DNA of 13,323 bases, taken from Candidatus Phaeomarinibacter sp. Lineage in GTDB: Bacteria > Pseudomonadota > Alphaproteobacteria > CGMCC-115125. This document shows positions 2,692 through 12,713 of this stretch, one piece after another; position 1 is the first letter of the stretch, and every line of letters starts with the position of its first letter. A program made the translations under genes and the position numbers. Location of the stretch: assembly GCA_028279995.1 (NCBI GenBank), contig JANQMQ010000710.1, positions 1 through 13,323 of the forward strand, given 5' to 3'. The notes under the pieces were generated by a model. The model was not told the origin of the DNA. It searched no databases and saw only the letters and a list, made by a program, of their open reading frames with translations.

Positions 2692-3513
2692 TCAGGAAGG
2701 ATCGCGCAACACCCAGCCATGGTCGAGCGGCCCTGCACCGGCACCGATCTTCGGCGCGTGTGTCATAGCCATATGCACATAGTCACGCGCATCTTCCACT
2801 GCATCCACAACATCCCTGCCCTGCGCCAGCAAGGTTGCGATGGCGCTGGCCAGCGTGCAGCCGGTGCCATGGGTCGACGTCGTGTTGATGCGCGGGCTGG
2901 TGAACGTGCGGATTTCAGTCGGTGTCGCCAGCACATCCACCACGACATCGCCGCCCAGATCCCCCCCGGTCACGAGCACACAGTCCGGCCCTGAGGCGAG
3001 CAACGCCCGCGCCGCCTCACGCACGTCACCCGCTGTCTTGACCGGCTGGTCAGCAAGCACGGCAGCTTCATGGATGTTCGGTGTGGCAATGAACGCCAGC
3101 GGTAGCAGCCGCCCGATCAGTGCCGCCTCGGCCTCCTGCTGCAACAGGCGGTCCCCTGACGTGGCAACCATCACCGGGTCAACCACCAGCGGCGGCACCT
3201 CGTCATAAGCCTCAATGGCATCCGCAACAGACATGATGATCTCCGCCGAGTGCAGCATGCCCGTCTTGAAGGCATCAACGCCGATGTCGGAAATGACTGC
3301 ATCCATCTGCTGGCGGACGAGTGCAGGCCGTAGCCCCTCAACCCCATGAACACCGGTCGTGTCCTGGACGGTAATGGCCGTCACAGCGGTGGCCGCATAG
3401 CCGCCGAGCGCCGTCACGGTCTTGATGTCCGCCTGAATACCGGCCCCGCCGCCTGAATCAGACCCGGCGACAATCAGTACCCGCGCCAGGTCAGAGGGCG
3501 TGATCTCGCTCAC
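2692..3513 (-). CDS. thiD: Hydroxymethylpyrimidine/phosphomethylpyrimidine kinase
   Basis: ThiD phosphorylates 4-amino-5-hydroxymethyl-2-methylpyrimidine (HMP) and then HMP phosphate, giving the pyrophosphate used for thiamin phosphate synthesis in the cytoplasm. The 273 residues show the ribokinase-fold ThiD pattern. [15 protein letters not shown] (17-31) is the substrate and glycine-rich segment, FKTGML (82-87) follows, and [14 protein letters not shown] is at 111-124. PNIHEA (145-150) is the N-x-x-E magnesium motif. [13 protein letters not shown] (214-226) has the anion-hole glycines and the conserved Cys219. The tail [11 protein letters not shown] matches the usual IG-G-GP-(L/V)-(D/N)H ending. 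The start is GTG at 3513, overlapping the glmM stop as GTGA. The upstream ribosome binding site is weak, so translational coupling to glmM is likely. No other thiamin gene is in the window, and pyridoxal kinase (PdxK) is a less likely paralogue. Confidence 0.95.
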
Positions 3514-4856
3514 GCGGAGCGACTCTCGATAACGGTGCAGATGTCATTCACAACCCGCTCGACCAGCGCATTGTCGTCCCCTTCCGCCATGACGCGGATC
3601 AGCGGCTCGGTACCGGACTTGCGGATGACCAGACGGCCCGTGTTACCAAGCGCCTGTGTACCCGTCTCGATGGCGTCCTTGACCTGATCATCTTCCAGCG
3701 GCGCACCGTCGCGGAACCGCACATTGCGCAGCAGCTGCGGCAGCGGATCAAACAGATGACAAATCTCGCTCAGGGGTTTTTGCGTTTCCGCCAGCACCGC
3801 CATCACCTGCAAAGCGGCAATCAACCCGTCGCCGGTCGTTGCGAAATCAGACAGCACCACATGGCCGGACTGTTCGCCACCAAGGTTAAAGCCATTGGCG
3901 CGCATGTGCTCCACCACGTAGCGGTCACCGACCTTGGTGCGGGCGAGCTTCATGCCTTTGCCTTCAAGATACCGCTCAAGACCAAGGTTGCTCATCACCG
4001 TTGCAACGATACCGCCGCCCTGAAGCAATTGCTTGTCGGCCCAGGACTGCGCAATGGCGGCCATCACCTGGTCGCCATCAACTGTCTCACCACGCTCATC
4101 CACAATGATGACCCGGTCCGCATCCCCATCAAGCGCAATGCCGATATCAGCCCGCAGCTCGCGAACCTTGCTGGCCATCATGTCGACAGCCGTGGAACCG
4201 CAGCCTTCATTGATGTTGGTGCCATTGGGTTCAACGCCGACCGAAAACACTTCCGCGCCGAGTTCCCACAACGCAGCAGGCGCCACCTTGTAGGCAGCGC
4301 CATTGGCGCAATCCACCACGACCCGGATGCCGTCGAGGCTCAGATGCCGCGGGAAGGTCCGCTTGGCGAATTCAATGTATCGAGCCTGCGCGTCCTCAAT
4401 ACGCTTCGCACGCCCGATGCTCGAGGGTGCTGCAAGGCCATCTGCCAGGCCGTTGTCCATGTGATGTTCGATCGCATGCTCGACATCATCGGAGAGCTTG
4501 TAGCCGTCGGGTCCAAACAGCTTGATGCCATTATCACCAAAGCCATTGTGCGAGGCGGAAATCATCACACCAAGATCTGCCCTCAGCGAGCGCGTCAGCA
4601 TCGCCACCGCCGGCGTCGGCAGCGGGCCGAACTGGAAGACGTCCATGCCGACAGATGTAAATCCAGCGACCAGCGCATTTTCGATCATGTAGCCCGACAG
4701 GCGCGTATCCTTGCCGATCACCACCCGGTGGCGGTGCTCACCGCGCGTGAAAACACGCCCGGCTGCCATGCCCACCTTCAGGGCAGTTGAAGCGGTCATC
4801 GGTTCAAGGTTTGCACGGCCACGAATGCCGTCGGTTCCAAAATATTTGCGTGACAT
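3510..4856 (-). CDS. glmM: Phosphoglucosamine mutase
   Basis: GlmM interconverts glucosamine-6-phosphate and glucosamine-1-phosphate, supplying UDP-N-acetylglucosamine for peptidoglycan and lipopolysaccharide. The 448-residue protein is full length for the family and has its four-domain plan. The N-terminus is [10 protein letters not shown] (4-13). The catalytic phosphoserine loop is [17 protein letters not shown] (96-112), with Ser102 the phosphorylated residue. The magnesium loop is DGDADR (243-248). The sugar-binding loop is GGEQSGH (326-332), and the C-terminal phosphate-binding loop is [12 protein letters not shown] (412-423). The sugar loop is GEQSG rather than the GEMSG or GEXSG variants of other hexose mutases, which supports GlmM. 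The ATG at 4856 has GGGGGA six bases upstream. folP lies 101 nt before it, and thiD overlaps its stop. Its position next to a Sul-type folP is of evolutionary interest because mobile sul2 genes carry a fragment of glmM. Confidence 0.97.
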
Positions 4857-4957
4857 GAAATGTCCCCCGCGTCGTCCTGCCGGCCTATGCGACCGTTATT
4901 TGACGCGCACTATAGACAAAGGCGTTGTTTACTAGGTTAACGAATGTTTTCAGCGTA
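4857..4957 (-). other. folP-glmM intergenic region (possible glmM promoter)
   Basis: This 101-nt gap is clearly more AT-rich in its folP-proximal half (about 4905-4957) than the flanking genes. On the minus strand it contains TATAGT (5 of 6 to the sigma-70 -10 box) about 50 nt before the glmM ATG. No good -35 box sits 16-19 nt upstream, and the nearest TTAACC is 20 nt away. The only firm element is the glmM ribosome binding site GGGGGA at 4863-4868. No terminator hairpin follows the folP stop, so read-through from folP is equally possible. Confidence 0.35.
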
Positions 4958-5782
4958 TTACCGGGTTTGCGGCGCATGCGCGCCATCCAGCGCACCGGTG
5001 ACAGCCAGCGCATCCCGGAGCGCTCCCGGTGCATGGGTGCGGATATAACGGGCTCCGGCCTTCGCTGCAAACATCTCGGCAGCCAGCGTCGCCGGCCCGA
5101 TATCCGCCACATCCCGGCCGGTCATTTTGCGCAGGAAACTCTTGCGGGAAACCGACACCAGCACCGGAAGATCATACCGCGCTTCCAGGCGGTTCAGGTC
5201 ACGCAGCACGGTGAGAGAGACATCCGGATCGGTCCCCAGAAAGAATCCCATTCCCGGATCCAGAACACACCGCTCGCGCGCAATCCCGGCTGCCTGCAAT
5301 GCAGCGAGCCGTGCGTCAAAAAAGGAGAATATCCGGTCCCATATGTCCGCGGCGTCGACATCCTGCCGCTGCGCCCGCCCACGCCCCTGCACCCCATGCA
5401 TGATGATGAGCTTCGCCGACGCACTGGCCAGCGCCGGATATATCTCCGCATGCGGAAACCCCTGAATGTCATTGAGGTAGGGAACACCATGCCCAAGTGC
5501 CCACAGCTGAACATCAGGCTCGAAACTGTCGACCGAAACGGGAATACCCGCCTCGACAAGCTGCGGCAACACACGGCCCAGGCGTGCAATTTCCTCAGCC
5601 GCCCCCACATCCGCAGAATCCGGATGGCTGGACGCCGGCCCCAGATCAATCATGTCTGCGCCCTGCGCCACCAGCGCCTGGGCGTGATCCACCGCCGCCT
5701 GCGGGTCGAGATATCTGCCACCGTCAGAAAAGGAATCGGCGGTGATGTTCACAATGCCAAGCAAGGTCGGCGAAGAGGTCAT
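4958..5782 (-). CDS. folP: Dihydropteroate synthase, Sul1/Sul2-type (sulfonamide-insensitive class)
   Basis: The enzyme condenses 6-hydroxymethyl-7,8-dihydropterin pyrophosphate with p-aminobenzoate to give dihydropteroate in folate synthesis. The 274-residue TIM barrel differs from usual FolP and follows Sul enzymes as I remember them: GIVNITADSFSDGGRYL (9-25), IDLGPASSHPDS (45-56) where most FolPs have an EST-R-PG type loop, VPYLNDIQGFP (100-110), LDPGMGFFLG (174-183), SVSRKSFLRKMTGR (210-223) and IRTHAPGALRD (247-257). The FFLG loop is about two residues longer than the usual DPG-GFGK-N form, and extra residues here with a Phe are the recognised Sul hallmark. The length lies between Sul2 (271) and Sul1 (279). 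ATG 5782 is preferred over TTG 5797 because the latter lies in the ftsH terminator T-run and has no ribosome binding site. A GGA lies about 10 nt before the ATG. It is flanked by ftsH and glmM, so it is the housekeeping copy in its native locus, not a cassette. Drug insensitivity is inferred, not shown. Confidence 0.93.
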   Translation of the reverse strand: MTSSPTLLGIVNITADSFSDGGRYLDPQAAVDHAQALVAQGADMIDLGPASSHPDSADVGAAEEIARLGRVLPQLVEAGIPVSVDSFEPDVQLWALGHGVPYLNDIQGFPHAEIYPALASASAKLIIMHGVQGRGRAQRQDVDAADIWDRIFSFFDARLAALQAAGIARERCVLDPGMGFFLGTDPDVSLTVLRDLNRLEARYDLPVLVSVSRKSFLRKMTGRDVADIGPATLAAEMFAAKAGARYIRTHAPGALRDALAVTGALDGAHAPQTR

Positions 5783-5795
5783 GAGGGAAACATCC

Positions 5796-5836
5796 AAAAA
5801 AGCGAAAGGCCCGGGAGCATAAACGCCCGGGCCTTT
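5796..5836 (-). terminator. Intrinsic terminator after ftsH
   Basis: A perfect 11-bp inverted repeat (AAAGGCCCGGG at 5805-5815 with CCCGGGCCTTT at 5826-5836) encloses a 10-nt loop. Reading on the minus strand, it is followed after CGC by six T (5801-5796). It begins 21 nt after the ftsH stop. The T-run ends only 13 nt before the preferred folP ATG, so folP must be expressed by read-through or from a promoter inside the ftsH 3' end. Confidence 0.88.
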
Positions 5837-5857
5837 GCGAAACAGTGGTGGCAGCGC

Positions 5858-7786
5858 CTAAGTGCCCTGCGGCTCGGCACCTGGAGGAACGTTGCCGGTA
5901 TCACCCGACGGACGCCGCCCCGCAGACGGCACCGATGACGGGGTACCCTGCTCAGGGGTGATGTCATCATCCGTATTGCGCTCGGGCTTCGTGCCCTTCA
6001 GCAACGCCTTGATCTCATCGCCGGACAGCGTTTCGTATTCCAGCAAGCCCTGGCCGATGATCTCAAGTTCATCCCGCTTCTCCGTGAGGATGCGCGTGGC
6101 TTCCTCATGACCGGCCTTCACAAGACGCGCCACTTCAGCATCAATCTGCCGGGCAGTCTCCTCGGAGACGTTCTGATTGCGTGCAACAGAATGGCCAAGG
6201 AACACTTCTTCCTGGTTCTCACCAAAGGCGAGAGGGCCAAGAGAGTCCGACATGCCCCAGCGGGTGACCATGTTCTTGGCAAGCTTGGTGGCCTGCTCAA
6301 TGTCGGAGCCGGCGCCCGCGGTCACGGCATCGTGGCCAAACACAATCTCTTCCGCAACACGGCCACCCATCAGGATCGCCATGCGCGACGTCATCTCCTG
6401 ACGGCTCATGGAGAGCTTGTCGTCTTCCGGTAACTGCATGACCATGCCCAGTGCTCGACCACGTGGAATGATCGTCGCCTTGTGGATCGGGTCAGTCGAC
6501 GGCACATTCAGCGCCACCAGCGCATGGCCGCCTTCGTGATAGGCCGTCAGCTTCTTCTCATCATCGGACATCACCATGGTACGCCGCTCCGCGCCCATCA
6601 TCACCTTGTCCTTGGCATCTTCAAACTCGGACATGGTGACCAGACGCTTGGCCCGGCGCGCAGCCAGCAGCGCTGCTTCATTGACCAGGTTTGCAAGGTC
6701 AGCACCTGAGAAACCAGGCGTACCGCGCGCAATCGTTCGGGCATTGACGTCCGGTGCCAGCGGCACTTTGCGCATATGCACCTTGAGGATCTTCTCGCGC
6801 CCGACAATGTCCGGATTCGGAACAACAACCTGACGGTCGAAACGGCCAGGGCGCAGCAGCGCCGGGTCCAGAACGTCCGGGCGGTTGGTAGCCGCAATCA
6901 AGATGATGCCTTCATTGGCTTCAAAGCCATCCATCTCCACCAGCAACTGGTTGAGTGTCTGTTCGCGCTCGTCATTGCCGCCGCCAAGGCCTGCACCACG
7001 ATGCCGACCCACAGCATCGATTTCGTCGATGAAGATGATGCATGGTGCGTTCTTCTTGGCCTGCTCGAACATGTCGCGCACACGGCTCGCGCCGACACCA
7101 ACGAACATCTCCACAAAGTCAGACCCTGAGATCGTGAAGAACGGCACATTCGCTTCGCCCGCCACAGCGCGCGCAATCAGCGTTTTACCGGTGCCGGGAG
7201 GACCCACGAGCAGCGCCCCCTTGGGGATACGTCCGCCCAGGCGCTGGAACTTCTGCGGGTCCTGAAGAAACTCAACGATTTCCTGCAAATCGTCCTTGGC
7301 CTCGTCCACACCGGCCACATCATCGAAGGTGACACGGCCATGGCGTTCGGTCAGCAGCTTGGCTTTTGATTTGCCAAAGCCCATGGCCTTGCCGCCGCCA
7401 CCCTGCATCTGGCGCATGAAGAAAATCCACACACCGATCAGCAGCAGCATCGGGAACCAGGAAACCAGAACGCTGAGCAGCGTCGGCGAATCGGACGAAC
7501 TCGGCCGGGCAGAAATCTGCACACCGCGCTCATAGAGGCGCTCGGTCACATTGGAATTCGGCGGCGCATAGGTGGTAAAGGCCCGCCCGTCCGAAAACGT
7601 GCCGGTGATCTTCTCACCCTGAATGGTCACATCCGCCACAGAGCCCGCATCGGCCTCCGCCAGAAGCTCGGAGAAGGTGATGTCGCTTGTTGCCCCCTGC
7701 TGGGCCGGAGCCTGAAACAGGTTGAACAGCGCCACCAGCAACAATGCGATGATGACCCAAAGCGCGAAATTGCGAAAATTATTCAC
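5858..7786 (-). CDS. ftsH: ATP-dependent zinc metalloprotease FtsH
   Basis: FtsH is a hexameric inner-membrane AAA+ protease that degrades misassembled membrane proteins and selected regulators. The 642 residues include TM1 (about 8-25), a periplasmic domain (about 30-102), TM2 (about 104-124), and the AAA module with Walker A GPPGTGKT (195-202), pore motif FVG (228-230), Walker B IIFIDEID (250-257) and the arginine-finger region ATNRPD to RPGRFDR (299-318). The peptidase domain has the zinc motif HEGGH (417-421), and Asp495 in AGSDIEQAT is the likely third ligand. The last 40 residues are a polar Pro/Gly-rich tail. The start is GTG at 7786, giving the family-typical [21 protein letters not shown] lies ten bases upstream. 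It follows tilS after 181 nt and is closed by its own terminator before folP. Heat-shock control is common for ftsH, but I found no convincing sigma-32 box. Confidence 0.98.
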
Positions 7787-9313: not shown

Positions 9314-10309
9314 CTACACACAACCGGCGCGGGCGCGCTCCTGCTCTGCGCGCGCCTTCACACTTTGCGGCGCGCCCGGAAAGGTACGCGGCACTTCTGC
9401 AAGGGTCAGGCAGGCGTCCTGCGTCTGGCCAAGTGCGGCGAGTGTGATACCAAGCTTGAGCAGGCTGTCCGGGGCTTTCGGACTGGAGGCATAGGTCTGG
9501 TACCCGGTCAGGAAGGCACGCGCCGCGTCCTGATACTGCTCACGAACATAGTAGGTTTCACCCAGCCAGTACTGGGCGTTCCCGGCAAGGCTTGTGTCGC
9601 CATAGGTCTCAAGGAACTGCGAAAATGCTACCTCGGCGGACGAATAATCACCCTGCCGCAGAAAGCTCATGGCGTATTTGTAGGCTTGGTCCGGTCCACC
9701 TTCCGGGAGCCCGGCCGTTGCGGCGGAAGAAAGCTGGCGCGGCGGTGTCAGCTGCGGCGCCGAGGAGGAGACACCGCCCAGCGTCCCTACACTGGCCTGC
9801 TGCGCTGCCGAGAGCGGTTTCTCCGCAGGCGCAGGAGCCTGCTGGGCCGCAAGGGGAGCCGGCGCGCCCGCCGGCGCGGTGGACGCAGCTGGCCGCTGCC
9901 CGCCGCCCGTGCCTTCTAGGTCACGGAGACGGTAGTCCGTGTCAGCTGCAAAGTTGTCGAGCTTCTGGTTTGCCTGGCGCAGCTCAAACTGCAGCCGTTC
10001 CACCTGCCCCGTCATGTCGCGCAGTGATGCTTCAATCTGATCAAGCCGCAACGAGATGCGTGCCGCGTCTGTGGCGCCCAGATCTGCAGCGGGCGCCGGA
10101 GCACCCAGCTGAGCCGGTGCCCTGCCCTGATAGACATTGCGCTGCACATCCTGGAGATCGCGCTCCAGCCGCAGCAGCCGGTCATACAGGGCGCGGGTGT
10201 CGGTTACCGATTGCTGGGCCTGCGCCGGAAAGGTGCCTGCGGCCAGAACCACGCCCGCACCGACCATCAATGACGGCAAAACAATCAGGGCAAATCTCAG
10301 CTTGGGCAT
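9314..10309 (-). CDS. cpoB: Tol-Pal associated periplasmic TPR protein CpoB (YbgF)
   Basis: CpoB links the Tol-Pal system with peptidoglycan synthesis during division in E. coli and acts in the periplasm. From the ATG at 10309 the 331-residue protein starts with a signal peptide: MPKLRF, hydrophobic 6-24, and probable cleavage after AQA at 31. An N-terminal coiled coil (about 36-60 and 84-133), rich in R/L/E/Q heptads, is the trimerisation region. A Pro/Ala/Gln-rich linker (135-205) follows. The C-terminal TPR domain (207-320) includes AYKYAMSFLRQGDYSSAEVAF, NAQYWLGETYYVREQYQDAARAF and DSLLKLGITLAALGQTQDAC, each a helix pair. The frame extends to a TTG at 10384 with another ATG at 10336. I prefer 10309 for its GGA six bases upstream and its standard signal peptide. 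It lies downstream of pal behind a strong hairpin, and tilS follows 8 nt after its stop. Confidence 0.88.
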   Translation of the reverse strand: MPKLRFALIVLPSLMVGAGVVLAAGTFPAQAQQSVTDTRALYDRLLRLERDLQDVQRNVYQGRAPAQLGAPAPAADLGATDAARISLRLDQIEASLRDMTGQVERLQFELRQANQKLDNFAADTDYRLRDLEGTGGGQRPAASTAPAGAPAPLAAQQAPAPAEKPLSAAQQASVGTLGGVSSSAPQLTPPRQLSSAATAGLPEGGPDQAYKYAMSFLRQGDYSSAEVAFSQFLETYGDTSLAGNAQYWLGETYYVREQYQDAARAFLTGYQTYASSPKAPDSLLKLGITLAALGQTQDACLTLAEVPRTFPGAPQSVKARAEQERARAGCV

Positions 10310-10444
10310 GACCAGTCCAGTACGGCGGTATTTCATGAGACGCAAATCACTCCACAAGCTTGGCAAAATTGAGGCCCGGCCCAAAGCCTAAACCACCAGT
10401 CCCTTCAAAAGCGATGAATTCCCGCTCCGGCGGCCGGAATCAAA

Positions 10445-10473
10445 GGGGCGCACACCACGTGGGTGTGCGCCCC
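10445..10473 (-). terminator. Strong hairpin after pal, probable (partial) terminator
   Basis: A perfect 12-bp stem (GGGGCGCACACC at 10445-10456 with GGTGTGCGCCCC at 10462-10473) encloses a 5-nt loop, beginning 30 nt after the pal stop. On the minus strand it is followed by TTTGATT, a poor T-tract. It may terminate part of the transcripts, or protect the 3' end of a tolB-pal message and lower cpoB output. I rate hairpin formation as near certain and termination as likely but not complete. Confidence 0.65.
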
Positions 10474-10503
10474 GGCAACAACAGTATCTAGGCCCGTCGG
10501 CCG

Positions 10504-11052
10504 TTAGGAGCCTGCGCCCTGAGTCACAACGGTGACTGCACGGCGATTCTGTGCCCAGCAGCTTTCGTCAGAGCAAAGCGCCACCGGGCGCTCCTTGCCG
10601 AACGAAATCGTCTGCACGCGGGATGGCTGAACACCAAGGCTTACCAGATAGTCCTTGGCAGAGTTGGCACGCCGCGCACCAAGCGCAAGGTTATACTCGC
10701 GGGTACCGCGTTCATCGGCATGACCTTCAAGCGTAACGCGCACAGCCGGATACTGGTTCATCCAGGCCGCCTGACGCTGAAGCGTTGCACGGGCATCAGC
10801 GCGAAGAGACGACTGGTCGGTGTCGAAGAACACGCGGTCACCGACATTGACCACAAGGTCCTGCTGGGTGCCCGGTGTCGGGCCGGACGGTGCCGGTGCT
10901 GTCGGCTGTGTCGTGGTCTGAACCACAGGCTGCTCTGGGTCAGAGCTGCAGGCGACAAGCGCCATCGCGGCAAAACCTGCCAAAGCCATCTTCACGGCAC
11001 GGCCGGCAAATCCGGAATTAATTGTCCGTGAACGGATCAACGTTGCGGTCAT
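10504..11052 (-). CDS. pal: Peptidoglycan-associated lipoprotein Pal
   Basis: Pal anchors the outer membrane to peptidoglycan and is mobilised by TolB and TolA at the division site. The 182-residue precursor has a lipoprotein signal peptide ending in the lipobox LVAC, with Cys35 the lipidated residue. Ser at +2 suits outer-membrane sorting. A short Pro/Thr-rich tether (about 40-62) leads to the OmpA-like peptidoglycan-binding domain: VFFDTDQSSL (74-83), LEGHADERGTREYNLALGARRA (108-129) and WAQNRRAV (166-173). Cys160 and Cys165 in ALCSDESCW could form a disulfide, and similar pairs occur in alphaproteobacterial Pal proteins. The frame is open upstream to about 11295, but ATG 11052 with AGGAGA nine bases before it and a correct signal peptide is clearly the start. 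It lies 289 nt after tolB, far enough for its own promoter, and is followed by a strong hairpin. Confidence 0.96.
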   Translation of the reverse strand: MTATLIRSRTINSGFAGRAVKMALAGFAAMALVACSSDPEQPVVQTTTQPTAPAPSGPTPGTQQDLVVNVGDRVFFDTDQSSLRADARATLQRQAAWMNQYPAVRVTLEGHADERGTREYNLALGARRANSAKDYLVSLGVQPSRVQTISFGKERPVALCSDESCWAQNRRAVTVVTQGAGS

Positions 11053-11341
11053 ATCAAAAAATCTCCTGCCTTCACGGACCACTTGTGGCCCCCAAAATCT
11101 GTTGCACCCATTAGAACCGCAAACCCAAGAAAACAGCTGTGTGTTCCAGTCCGCATGCGTTCCAAATACTTCTAGCCGTCTCGTGCTGCCTCCGAATGCG
11201 AGATGTCGAAACATCCTTAACAGCTCAATATGACGGTTGCCCGCAAAACCCTCCCGATTGTCGGGTCCGATGATCGGAACAGGTCTTCCGGGCATCTTGA
11301 CGTTTTCTTGGATCCCCTGAGGGACGTTATCCGCTTCCCCC
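11053..11341 (-). other. tolB-pal intergenic region (pal leader)
   Basis: This is the largest gap of the window (289 nt). It has no supported gene. On the minus strand it holds, in order, a weak stem (TCCC-TCA-GGGA type, near 11310-11325), two abutting 13-bp palindromes at 11253-11278, and a small stem GATGT-TTCG-ACATC (11202-11215) with a UUCG loop. The pal ribosome binding site AGGAGA ends about nine bases before its ATG. No clear sigma-70 promoter or strong terminator for tolB is visible. An 81-codon stretch in frame with pal is open here but is judged non-coding. Confidence 0.5.
11253..11278. repeat. Two abutting 13-bp palindromes upstream of pal
   Basis: CCCGATTGTCGGG (11253-11265) is directly followed by TCCGATGATCGGA (11266-11278). 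Both are perfect inverted repeats around a 3-bp centre, sharing the pattern CCGA-N3-TCGG with a 13-bp period. As RNA each can form a 5-bp hairpin with a 3-nt loop. As DNA they could be paired operator half-sites. They lie about 200 nt before the pal start codon and about 65 nt after tolB. Confidence 0.6.
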
Positions 11342-12682
11342 CTAACGGATCAAGGGAGACCAGGCCGGATCTGACCCGAATCCCGGCGTTGCCACCTGTC
11401 GTTCGTTATAGCCGGTCAGATCCACAGACCACAGGCTGGGACCGCCCCGCGCGCCCGGTGTCTCGCGGAAAAACATGAGAACCCGGCCATTTGGCGCCCA
11501 AGTGGGTCCTTCGTTGTGATAGCCCTCGGTCAAAATACGCTCACCCGTGCCGTCGGGACGCATCACGCCGATCAGGAACCGGCCTTTGTATTGCTTGGTA
11601 AACGCGATCATATCTCCGCGAGGTGACCAGACCGGCGTTGAATACCGGCCTTCGCCAAAGCTGATCCGGCGCACACCAGAGCCGTCAGAGTTCATGACAT
11701 AGATCTGCTGCGTGCCGCCCCGGTCGCTTTCAAAGGCAATCTCGCGGCCAGCCGGGCCATAGGTCGGTGACGTATCAATCGACGGCGAGTTGGTCAGACG
11801 CCGCGTACCACGGGTACGCAAATCAAGTTCATAGATGTTGGCATTCCCGCCGCGCTGCAGGCTCATGATGACCCGGTCACCATCAGGGGAGAACCGGGGC
11901 GCGAAGGTCATGCCTGGGAACTCGCCAACAACTTCCTGCTGCCGTGTTTCGATATTGAAGAGATAGACCCGCGGGCTGCCACCAGCATAGGAGAGATAGG
12001 TGATCTCCTGATTGGTTGGCGAGAACCGCGGCGTCAGCACAAGGGCGCCGCCATTGGTCAGGAAGCGCGGGTTATGGCCGTCCTGGTCCATCAGCGTCAG
12101 CCGCTTGACACGCTGGCCCTTGTTGCCGGTCTCCGACACATAAACGATGCGCGTATCGAAATAGCCGGTCTCTCCGGTCAGCCGCTCATAGATGGCGTCC
12201 GAAATGATATGCGACACACGCCGCCAGTTGTCCGGCTTCGTGAAGTACTGCAGCCCGATGAGTTGCTCTTCGCCAAATACATCCCATAGACGGAACTCCA
12301 CCCGAAGACGGCCGTCCGCCTCCTGCGTGACTGATCCGGTCAGCAGCGCCTGGGCGTCAATGATGCGCCAGTCACCAAAGCGCGGCGCGCTGTTGGGGTC
12401 GGTGATTTTCTGAATGAATGCTGCTTCACTCAGCGGACGGAACAATCCGGACCGCTCCAGATTGTTGCGGATGACACCGGCCATCTGATCACCGGTCTGC
12501 GCCGCCGCGTCGTCGCTTCCCACAAAGTCCGTCACCGCGAGCGGCAGCGGCTCGATGGTGCCCTGTGTGATGTCGATGCGCAGTTGTGCAAGCGCTGCCC
12601 CCGGCACCACAAGCACAACCACTGCCATAAGTGGCACGAGCCGTGTCAGATATCCCGCCAGAATTTGCCTGTACCCGCGCAT
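11342..12682 (-). CDS. tolB: Tol-Pal system periplasmic protein TolB
   Basis: TolB binds Pal and TolA in the periplasm and passes energy-dependent movement to Pal during envelope constriction. From the ATG at 12682 it has 446 residues. A signal peptide has the hydrophobic core 14-30 and cleavage after ALA at 32. The N-terminal alpha/beta domain (about 34-170) includes [10 protein letters not shown], the usual TolB IAVxxF segment, and [20 protein letters not shown] six-bladed beta-propeller (about 175-446) has repeated blades with R-FSP-(D/N) and I-Y-(M/L)-(N/D) motifs, at 218-250, 262-294, 305-336 and 350-380, and WAPNGR at 395-400. The TTG at 12688 in the same frame is rejected because AGAGG is eight bases before the ATG and only two before the TTG. 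It starts 31 nt after tolA and is surely transcribed with it. Confidence 0.96.
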
Positions 12683-12713
12683 TCCCAAAGCCTCTCGTAG
12701 CCTGCCAACCCGT

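Follow-up and report, generated by a model that had tools for sequence, protein, structure and literature searches.

Chromosomal folP genes that carry the Sul motif are known from Rhodobiaceae, e.g., Parvibaculum lavamentivorans (Sanchez-Osuna et al. 2019, PMC6335563), in a study of sul1/sul2 and Rhodobiaceae folP that a first-pass annotation of the present DNA had pointed to and that does exist. In that work, the folP of P. lavamentivorans conferred sulfamethoxazole resistance of >512 mg/L in E. coli (Table 2) and that of L. interrogans 512 mg/L, while R. sphaeroides folP conferred none (8 mg/L sulfamethoxazole). In the mobile enzymes Sul1, Sul2, and Sul3, a Phe of helix alpha6 is essential for broad resistance and a Leu contributes; replacement of the Phe by Gly compromised the resistance of all three (PMC10328974). 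A sulfonamide-resistant, non-mobile DHPS has also been reported from forest soil: SEW5_DHPS01, which is nearest to alphaproteobacterial DHPS and gave high-level resistance in E. coli (PMC6416219).

The window analyzed here (the whole stretch of DNA, 13,323 nucleotides) contains a folP gene for a dihydropteroate synthase (DHPS) of the Sul type. It is very probably the organism's own, and probably only, DHPS gene, belongs to the Sul-type lineage, and is predicted to encode an enzyme that is insensitive to sulfonamides at the target. The gene and its neighbors are as follows:
2692..3513, minus strand: thiD-type HMP-P kinase gene, overlapping the glmM stop (TIGR00097, 296.9 bits)
3510..4856, minus strand: glmM, phosphoglucosamine mutase gene, downstream of folP (TIGR01455, 621.7 bits)
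4857..4957, minus strand: folP-glmM intergenic region, 101 bases
4958..5782, minus strand: folP, Sul-type DHPS of 274 aa, with ATG at 5782 and a stop ending at 4958
5858..7786, minus strand: ftsH, upstream of folP (TIGR01241, 893.7 bits)
The open reading frame (ORF) list also offers an alternative folP start, TTG at 5797, which would add five residues.

The protein scored 237.9 bits with the curated DHPS model TIGR01496 (cutoff, 162.6) and 195.7 bits with the Pterin_bind model PF00809 (cutoff, 25.5). Six Sul-like segments had been quoted from it at first pass, and all of them are found in order, at folP residues 12, 46, 102, 174, 210, and 248; this likeness is not due to chance, given an E value of 9.6e-95 against Sul2 in the PDB search and the TIGR01496 score. 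The nearest solved structures in that search were Sul2 (320.1 bits), Sul3 (276.9 bits), and Sul1 (252.4 bits), against 144.2 bits for the best ordinary DHPS, which bears out the claim of a better match to Sul1/Sul2 than to housekeeping FolP. The label “Sul1/Sul2-type” can be refined: Sul2 is the nearest, at 61% protein identity, and Sul1 (49%) is about as close as Sul3 (51%); identity to E. coli K-12 FolP is 33%. NCBIfam scores were 338 bits for Sul2, 280.7 for Sul3, 261.8 for Sul1, and 79.8 for Sul4, all below the curated cutoffs (575, 475, 600, and 600 bits, respectively), and 136.6 bits for the E. coli-type model PRK11613. An AlphaFold model of the protein had a mean pLDDT of 94.2, and its 15 best Foldseek matches in the PDB were all Sul1-3 chains.

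The Sul-specific insertion, whose absence would have spoken against the family assignment of the first-pass annotation, is present in an 88-row alignment, where LDPGMGFFLG of the window is set against LDPGFGF--G of E. coli:
5234..5260, minus strand: codons for residues 175-183, DPGMGFFLG, which form the Sul motif including its two inserted residues in the alignment
5237-5239, minus strand: codon of L182, equivalent of Sul2 L181
5243-5245, minus strand: codon of F180, equivalent of Sul2 F179
The alignment used here places the E. coli gap against Sul2 residues 180-181, but in PMC10328974 the extra residue is Phe179; which pair is called “inserted” therefore depends on the alignment. Residues N12, S17, F18, S52, D174, K213, and S214 of Sul2 are all conserved in the window protein. 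The enzyme would join pABA to dihydropterin pyrophosphate, yielding dihydropteroate for folate. In the loop that follows the DPG strand, the insertion is predicted to bring F180 and the nearby L182 into the pABA pocket, leaving room for pABA while causing a clash with sulfonamides. A Phe and a Leu in this pocket lead to the prediction that the organism, a “Ca. Phaeomarinobacter”-like alphaproteobacterium, has an intrinsically insensitive target. Both enzyme activity and drug insensitivity are what we infer from sequence.

Residues occupy the two gap columns in 67 of the 88 rows. The Sul-type clade accounts for 66 of these, without exception among its members; the remaining one, the Lacticaseibacillus locus L040 (YAY), is one of 22 outsiders, and the two columns are empty in the other 21. 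The FFL motif occurs in 57 of the 66 Sul-type rows, and the key Phe is replaced in nine (by Y in six and by L, Q, or N in one each). An N, Q, or L at this position was seen in Sporomusa ovata (L036) and in loci L065 (genome G142) and L062 (genome G320), all of them Sul-type DHPSs.

At E ≤ 1e-60, the window protein found matches in 25 of 385 alphaproteobacterial genomes, spread over nine family codes. A further search, with at least 21 loci among the matches listed, also gave relatives at 49 to 59% identity from Pectinatus, Propionispora, Sporomusa, and Streptomyces. With alphaproteobacteria, some Bacillota, and Streptomyces, the distribution of the Sul-type DHPS exceeds the two families given in the text of PMC6335563. 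Genomes for the alphaproteobacterial survey and for a Streptomyces survey were drawn evenly from the larger group, with up to six and eight candidates scored per genome, respectively; given the E value threshold (≤1e-60 in both) and these limits, weaker members could be missed. In the S. ovata genome (G424), the Pterin_bind genes number nine; several have frames of ∼270 aa, and corrinoid methyltransferases are probably among them besides DHPS.

So broad a lineage, in which the key Phe is not strictly held, favors an alternative: the window gene is Sul-type by descent, its insertion tunes pABA affinity or excludes a natural pABA-like metabolite, and insensitivity is a by-product, maybe a partial one. 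This is possible, but we consider it unlikely, as the Phe is present in the window protein and motif-bearing relatives are insensitive in E. coli (PMC6335563, PMC10328974).

The preferred reading, a Sul-type DHPS predicted to be insensitive at its target, was set against phylogeny in two trees. The 88 hand-picked rows of the first comprised the window protein, Sul1-3, E. coli FolP, 50 FolPs from collected loci, and 33 of 358 listed proteins; from 68 locus FolPs, L003 (the window folP itself) and 17 others (actinobacterial near-duplicates and some ordinary alphaproteobacterial FolPs) were excluded, and locus L050 had no usable ORF. In this quick tree the 66 Sul-type rows fell together (SH-aLRT 100). 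The long branches of distant FolPs (Corynebacterium and others) met in it, and eight long-branch rows (seven non-Sul and the Sul-type L074) were therefore dropped for a second tree, together with three ordinary rows and seven near-duplicates; nine rows were added. In the resulting 79-row tree, built without the motif columns, 67 Sul-type rows, including the window protein and Sul1-3, are separated from 12 ordinary FolPs at 100/100 by a branch of length 1.02; the letter composition of ten rows, Sul3 included, was flagged by the tree program. Removal of the insertion columns thus leaves the window folP with Sul1-3 and outside ordinary alphaproteobacterial FolP, the position that the first-pass annotation had expected. 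Its nearest row, at 92% identity and 100/99, is “MAG: dihydropteroate synthase [Candidatus Phaeomarinobacter sp.]”. Another subclade holds Sul3, and the fork that unites the window genus with Sul1, Sul2, and other alphaproteobacteria reached only 80/83. Sul1 formed a long branch in both trees, and the highest identity to it among the best-scoring matches was 56% (P0167).

An ordinary, sulfonamide-sensitive alphaproteobacterial FolP that is Sul-like merely in places would fit the ordinary ftsH-folP-glmM slot and the passing score with the general DHPS model. It would not group with Sul1-3 at 100/100 once the motif columns are removed, nor carry an insertion that outside the Sul-type clade is confined to L040, and we regard it as very improbable.

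In an NCBIfam scan (E ≤ 1e-10), the ten window ORFs around folP matched ftsH, glmM, thiD, tilS, ybgF, pal, and tolB and drug/metabolite-exporter-like, PhzF-like, and cysteine-desulfurase-like models. Both neighbors named at first pass, ftsH and glmM, are hereby confirmed, and none of the ten ORFs matched an integrase or transposase model, which agrees with the claim that integron and IS remnants are lacking. The ybgF, pal, and tolB genes, at 9314-12688 of the window, lie upstream of tilS-ftsH-folP-glmM on the same strand. The ftsH-folP-glmM order is common to the window and E. coli K-12 and is found in all four genomes of the genus examined; GC content is 62.8% in folP and 61.7% in the window. 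Within flanks of ∼1.5 kb per side, both neighbors are present at 22 of the 25 alphaproteobacterial Sul-type loci (L003-L009 and L060-L077) and at 18 of the 23 that were treated as ordinary (L010-L032; 29 to 39% identity), so the Sul-type gene occupies the slot of ordinary folP. The insertion is absent from all 15 of these 23 ordinary loci that were aligned. At one Sul-type locus (L071, in G341:C26), folP has its usual place between the two neighbors, ftsH and glmM, but is on the opposite strand to both; an insertion or an inversion could account for this.

That a mobile sul gene was recently acquired and landed in the chromosome is scarcely credible despite the strong similarity to Sul2 and the at least 5,000 plasmid records with a match to the window protein, being already contradicted by divergence (identity to Sul2 of just 61%) and by synteny (ftsH/glmM flanks in all four genus genomes), with a host-like GC content, no mobile-element model matched by the ten ORFs scanned, no carriage on a mobile element apparent among housekeeping neighbors that recur at the same locus in congeners, and a place in the tree beside those congeners (100/99).

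The genome to which the window belongs is a draft of 741 contigs, 81.29% complete, and has two Pterin_bind genes. One is folP; the other, on contig C208, is MetH (1069.5 bits; cutoff, 1010.85), and it was all that the search for a second, ordinary folP, proposed at first pass, turned up. Three congeners (listed as 100% complete) likewise have two Pterin_bind genes each, of which the second, in a frame of 889 to 917 aa, is taken for MetH. Since folK was found in all three congeners and not in the draft, the draft is missing genes, and a second folP could be missing from it too. The window folP is apparently the only DHPS gene in its 81%-complete genome, as are its counterparts in the three congeners. 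The housekeeping locus, the host-like GC content, and the identity of the other Pterin_bind gene uphold the earlier claim that the gene is the organism's own.

The window gene had also been proposed as a likely relative of the source of sul1/sul2. It is indeed a relative of sul2, but among the sequences compared the closest relative of sul2 belongs to another genus, Parvibaculum. A search with Sul2 matched 37 of 40 genomes in the family of G323, and the best FolP identities to Sul2 were 91% in G413 (90.3% by tblastn), 81% in G412, and 75% in G416. We infer that G413 belongs to the Parvibaculum genus, its genus code being the same as that of G412. The G413 folP-glmM locus (L145, G413:C22:54000-64500) contains, in L145 coordinates:
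4764-5579: folP
5666-7012: glmM
Plasmid L054, on which sul2 is followed by a truncated homologue of the glmM that is complete in the window, is collinear with G413 in one piece of 1155 bp at 84.7% identity (folP, 83.1%; 89-bp spacer, 82.0%; glmM, 92.3% over 233 bp). The similarity extends from ∼11 bp before the sul2 start to 78-80 codons into glmM. Sul2 and the G413 FolP are sisters (100/100) in the 79-row tree, and a DNA tree of the glmM start places the plasmid fragment in a two-row set (100/95) with G413 nearest, although the bootstrap had not settled. The locus is syntenic with that of G412 across and beyond folP-glmM, which marks it as native to G413, and with 557.6 bits the G413 FolP falls narrowly short of the Sul2 model cutoff (575). 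With a dS of 0.855 (dN, 0.055) between sul2 and G413 folP, G413 is related to the sul2 donor and is not the donor itself. The window is further from sul2 than G413 (61% for the protein and 74 to 76% for glmM DNA); as far as sequence goes, its genus is not the sul2 source and is a cousin rather than a parent. Mobile sul2 very probably came instead from a related lineage of the Parvibaculum genus, as one folP-glmM' piece.

The donor proxy in Table 1 of PMC6335563, P. lavamentivorans, has 63.33% DNA identity to sul2; that paper was the only one found in a literature search on sul2 and Parvibaculum, and according to PMC10328974 the direct ancestor of the sul genes has not been identified. Proteins at 86 to 89% identity to Sul2 resembled intermediates and were rejected, because the four that were profiled (P0140, P0142, P0147, and P0148) match Sul2 nearly in full except for one to three 30-residue blocks, as in frameshifted copies. 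After these in the protein database rank P0150-P0154 and P0156, at 77 to 80%; G413 is closer. For Sul3, the nearest proteins are P0241 (90%) and P0242 (86%; longest contig, 807 kb), which group with it together with P0262, a Prevotellaceae MAG protein (69%). In Bacteroidales, one of 344 genomes had a Sul3 relative at E ≤ 1e-60, with 60% identity. The published direction of transfer is from Leptospira to Rhodobiaceae. The grouping of P0241, P0242, and P0262 with Sul3 suggests that the source of Sul3 may not be Leptospira, though the single match among 344 Bacteroidales genomes tempers this; the only spirochaete row with a name is P0295 (Spirochaetia MAG).

Sul-type DHPSs were found in three of 295 Streptomyces genomes (E ≤ 1e-60):
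L148 and L149: genome G422, S. griseofuscus
L150 and L151: genome G425, S. hygroscopicus
L155: genome G570
Tyr takes the key position in the two aligned from named Streptomyces genomes and in the Streptomyces protein P0338. The DHPS gene is followed in each of these genomes by genes for PabAB and a lyase-like protein; PabAB was recognized by Pfam in G422 only and by similarity (79 to 87%) in G425 and G570. The lyase-like assignment is a weak one (for Lyase_1, G570 scored 29.6 bits and G422 scored 24.1; cutoff, 27), and the copies of G425 and G422 share 44% identity. In G422 and G425 the trio adjoins a run of genes for a methylaspartate mutase, an ectoine-synthase-like protein, an adenylation domain, two amino-acid-ligase-like proteins, an exporter, and a small protein without a Pfam match, read as a carrier protein; nothing matching this run was found within the 20 kb read in G570. 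Two further Pterin_bind genes outscore the Sul-type one in G422 (286 and 217 bits) and G425 (287 and 218 bits) and are probably ordinary FolP. Such duplication of the target suggests self-resistance to an antifolate, and a literature search found no report of such a Streptomyces cluster in titles or abstracts. Because a Sul-type DHPS and PabAB beside a biosynthetic-looking run, with extra Pterin_bind genes, are what producer self-resistance would lead one to expect, the Sul-type DHPS could be an ancient defense against microbial antifolates that mimic pABA, the window folP a descendant that is now the sole housekeeping copy, and sul1-3 later escapes. We hold this to be quite doubtful; if true, it would explain how a sulfonamide-insensitive DHPS predates synthetic sulfonamides.

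The present analysis adds a genus in which an enzyme predicted to be insensitive to sulfonamides seems to be established as the housekeeping DHPS, which accords with the opinion, already published, that resistance is older than the drugs. It also narrows the ancestry of sul2: a single chromosomal locus in a genome of the Parvibaculum genus is collinear with sul2 and the truncated glmM behind it, and at DNA identities of 83% (folP) to 92% (glmM), sampling of that genus could find the donor. New here are (i) the place of the window gene in the tree, (ii) evidence against its genus as the sul2 source, (iii) a much closer relative of sul2, and (iv) the Streptomyces DHPS-PabAB pair, a testable lead to a natural antifolate.

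Among known systems, P. lavamentivorans folP shares with the window gene the two-residue insertion, the position beside glmM, and a chromosomal location in an alphaproteobacterial host; it differs in genus and in that resistance was measured there and is predicted here. The main text of PMC6335563 does not contain the name “Ca. Phaeomarinobacter.” As described in PMC6416219, SEW5_DHPS01 resembles the window gene in being non-mobile and of alphaproteobacterial affinity. Mobile Sul2 (PDB 7s2j and 7s2k) shares 61% identity, the active-site residues listed above, and the alpha6 Phe and Leu, whereas the window gene is chromosomal, adjoins a complete glmM, and scores under the Sul2 model cutoff. Sul1 and Sul3 have the same insertion, the former as a long branch and the latter in a separate subclade. 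Fold and reaction are common to the window enzyme and ordinary FolP such as that of E. coli K-12, which has the same ftsH-folP-glmM locus but lacks the insertion and is 33% identical. The kind of gene is already published (2019 and 2023), and the window gene adds a genus to it.
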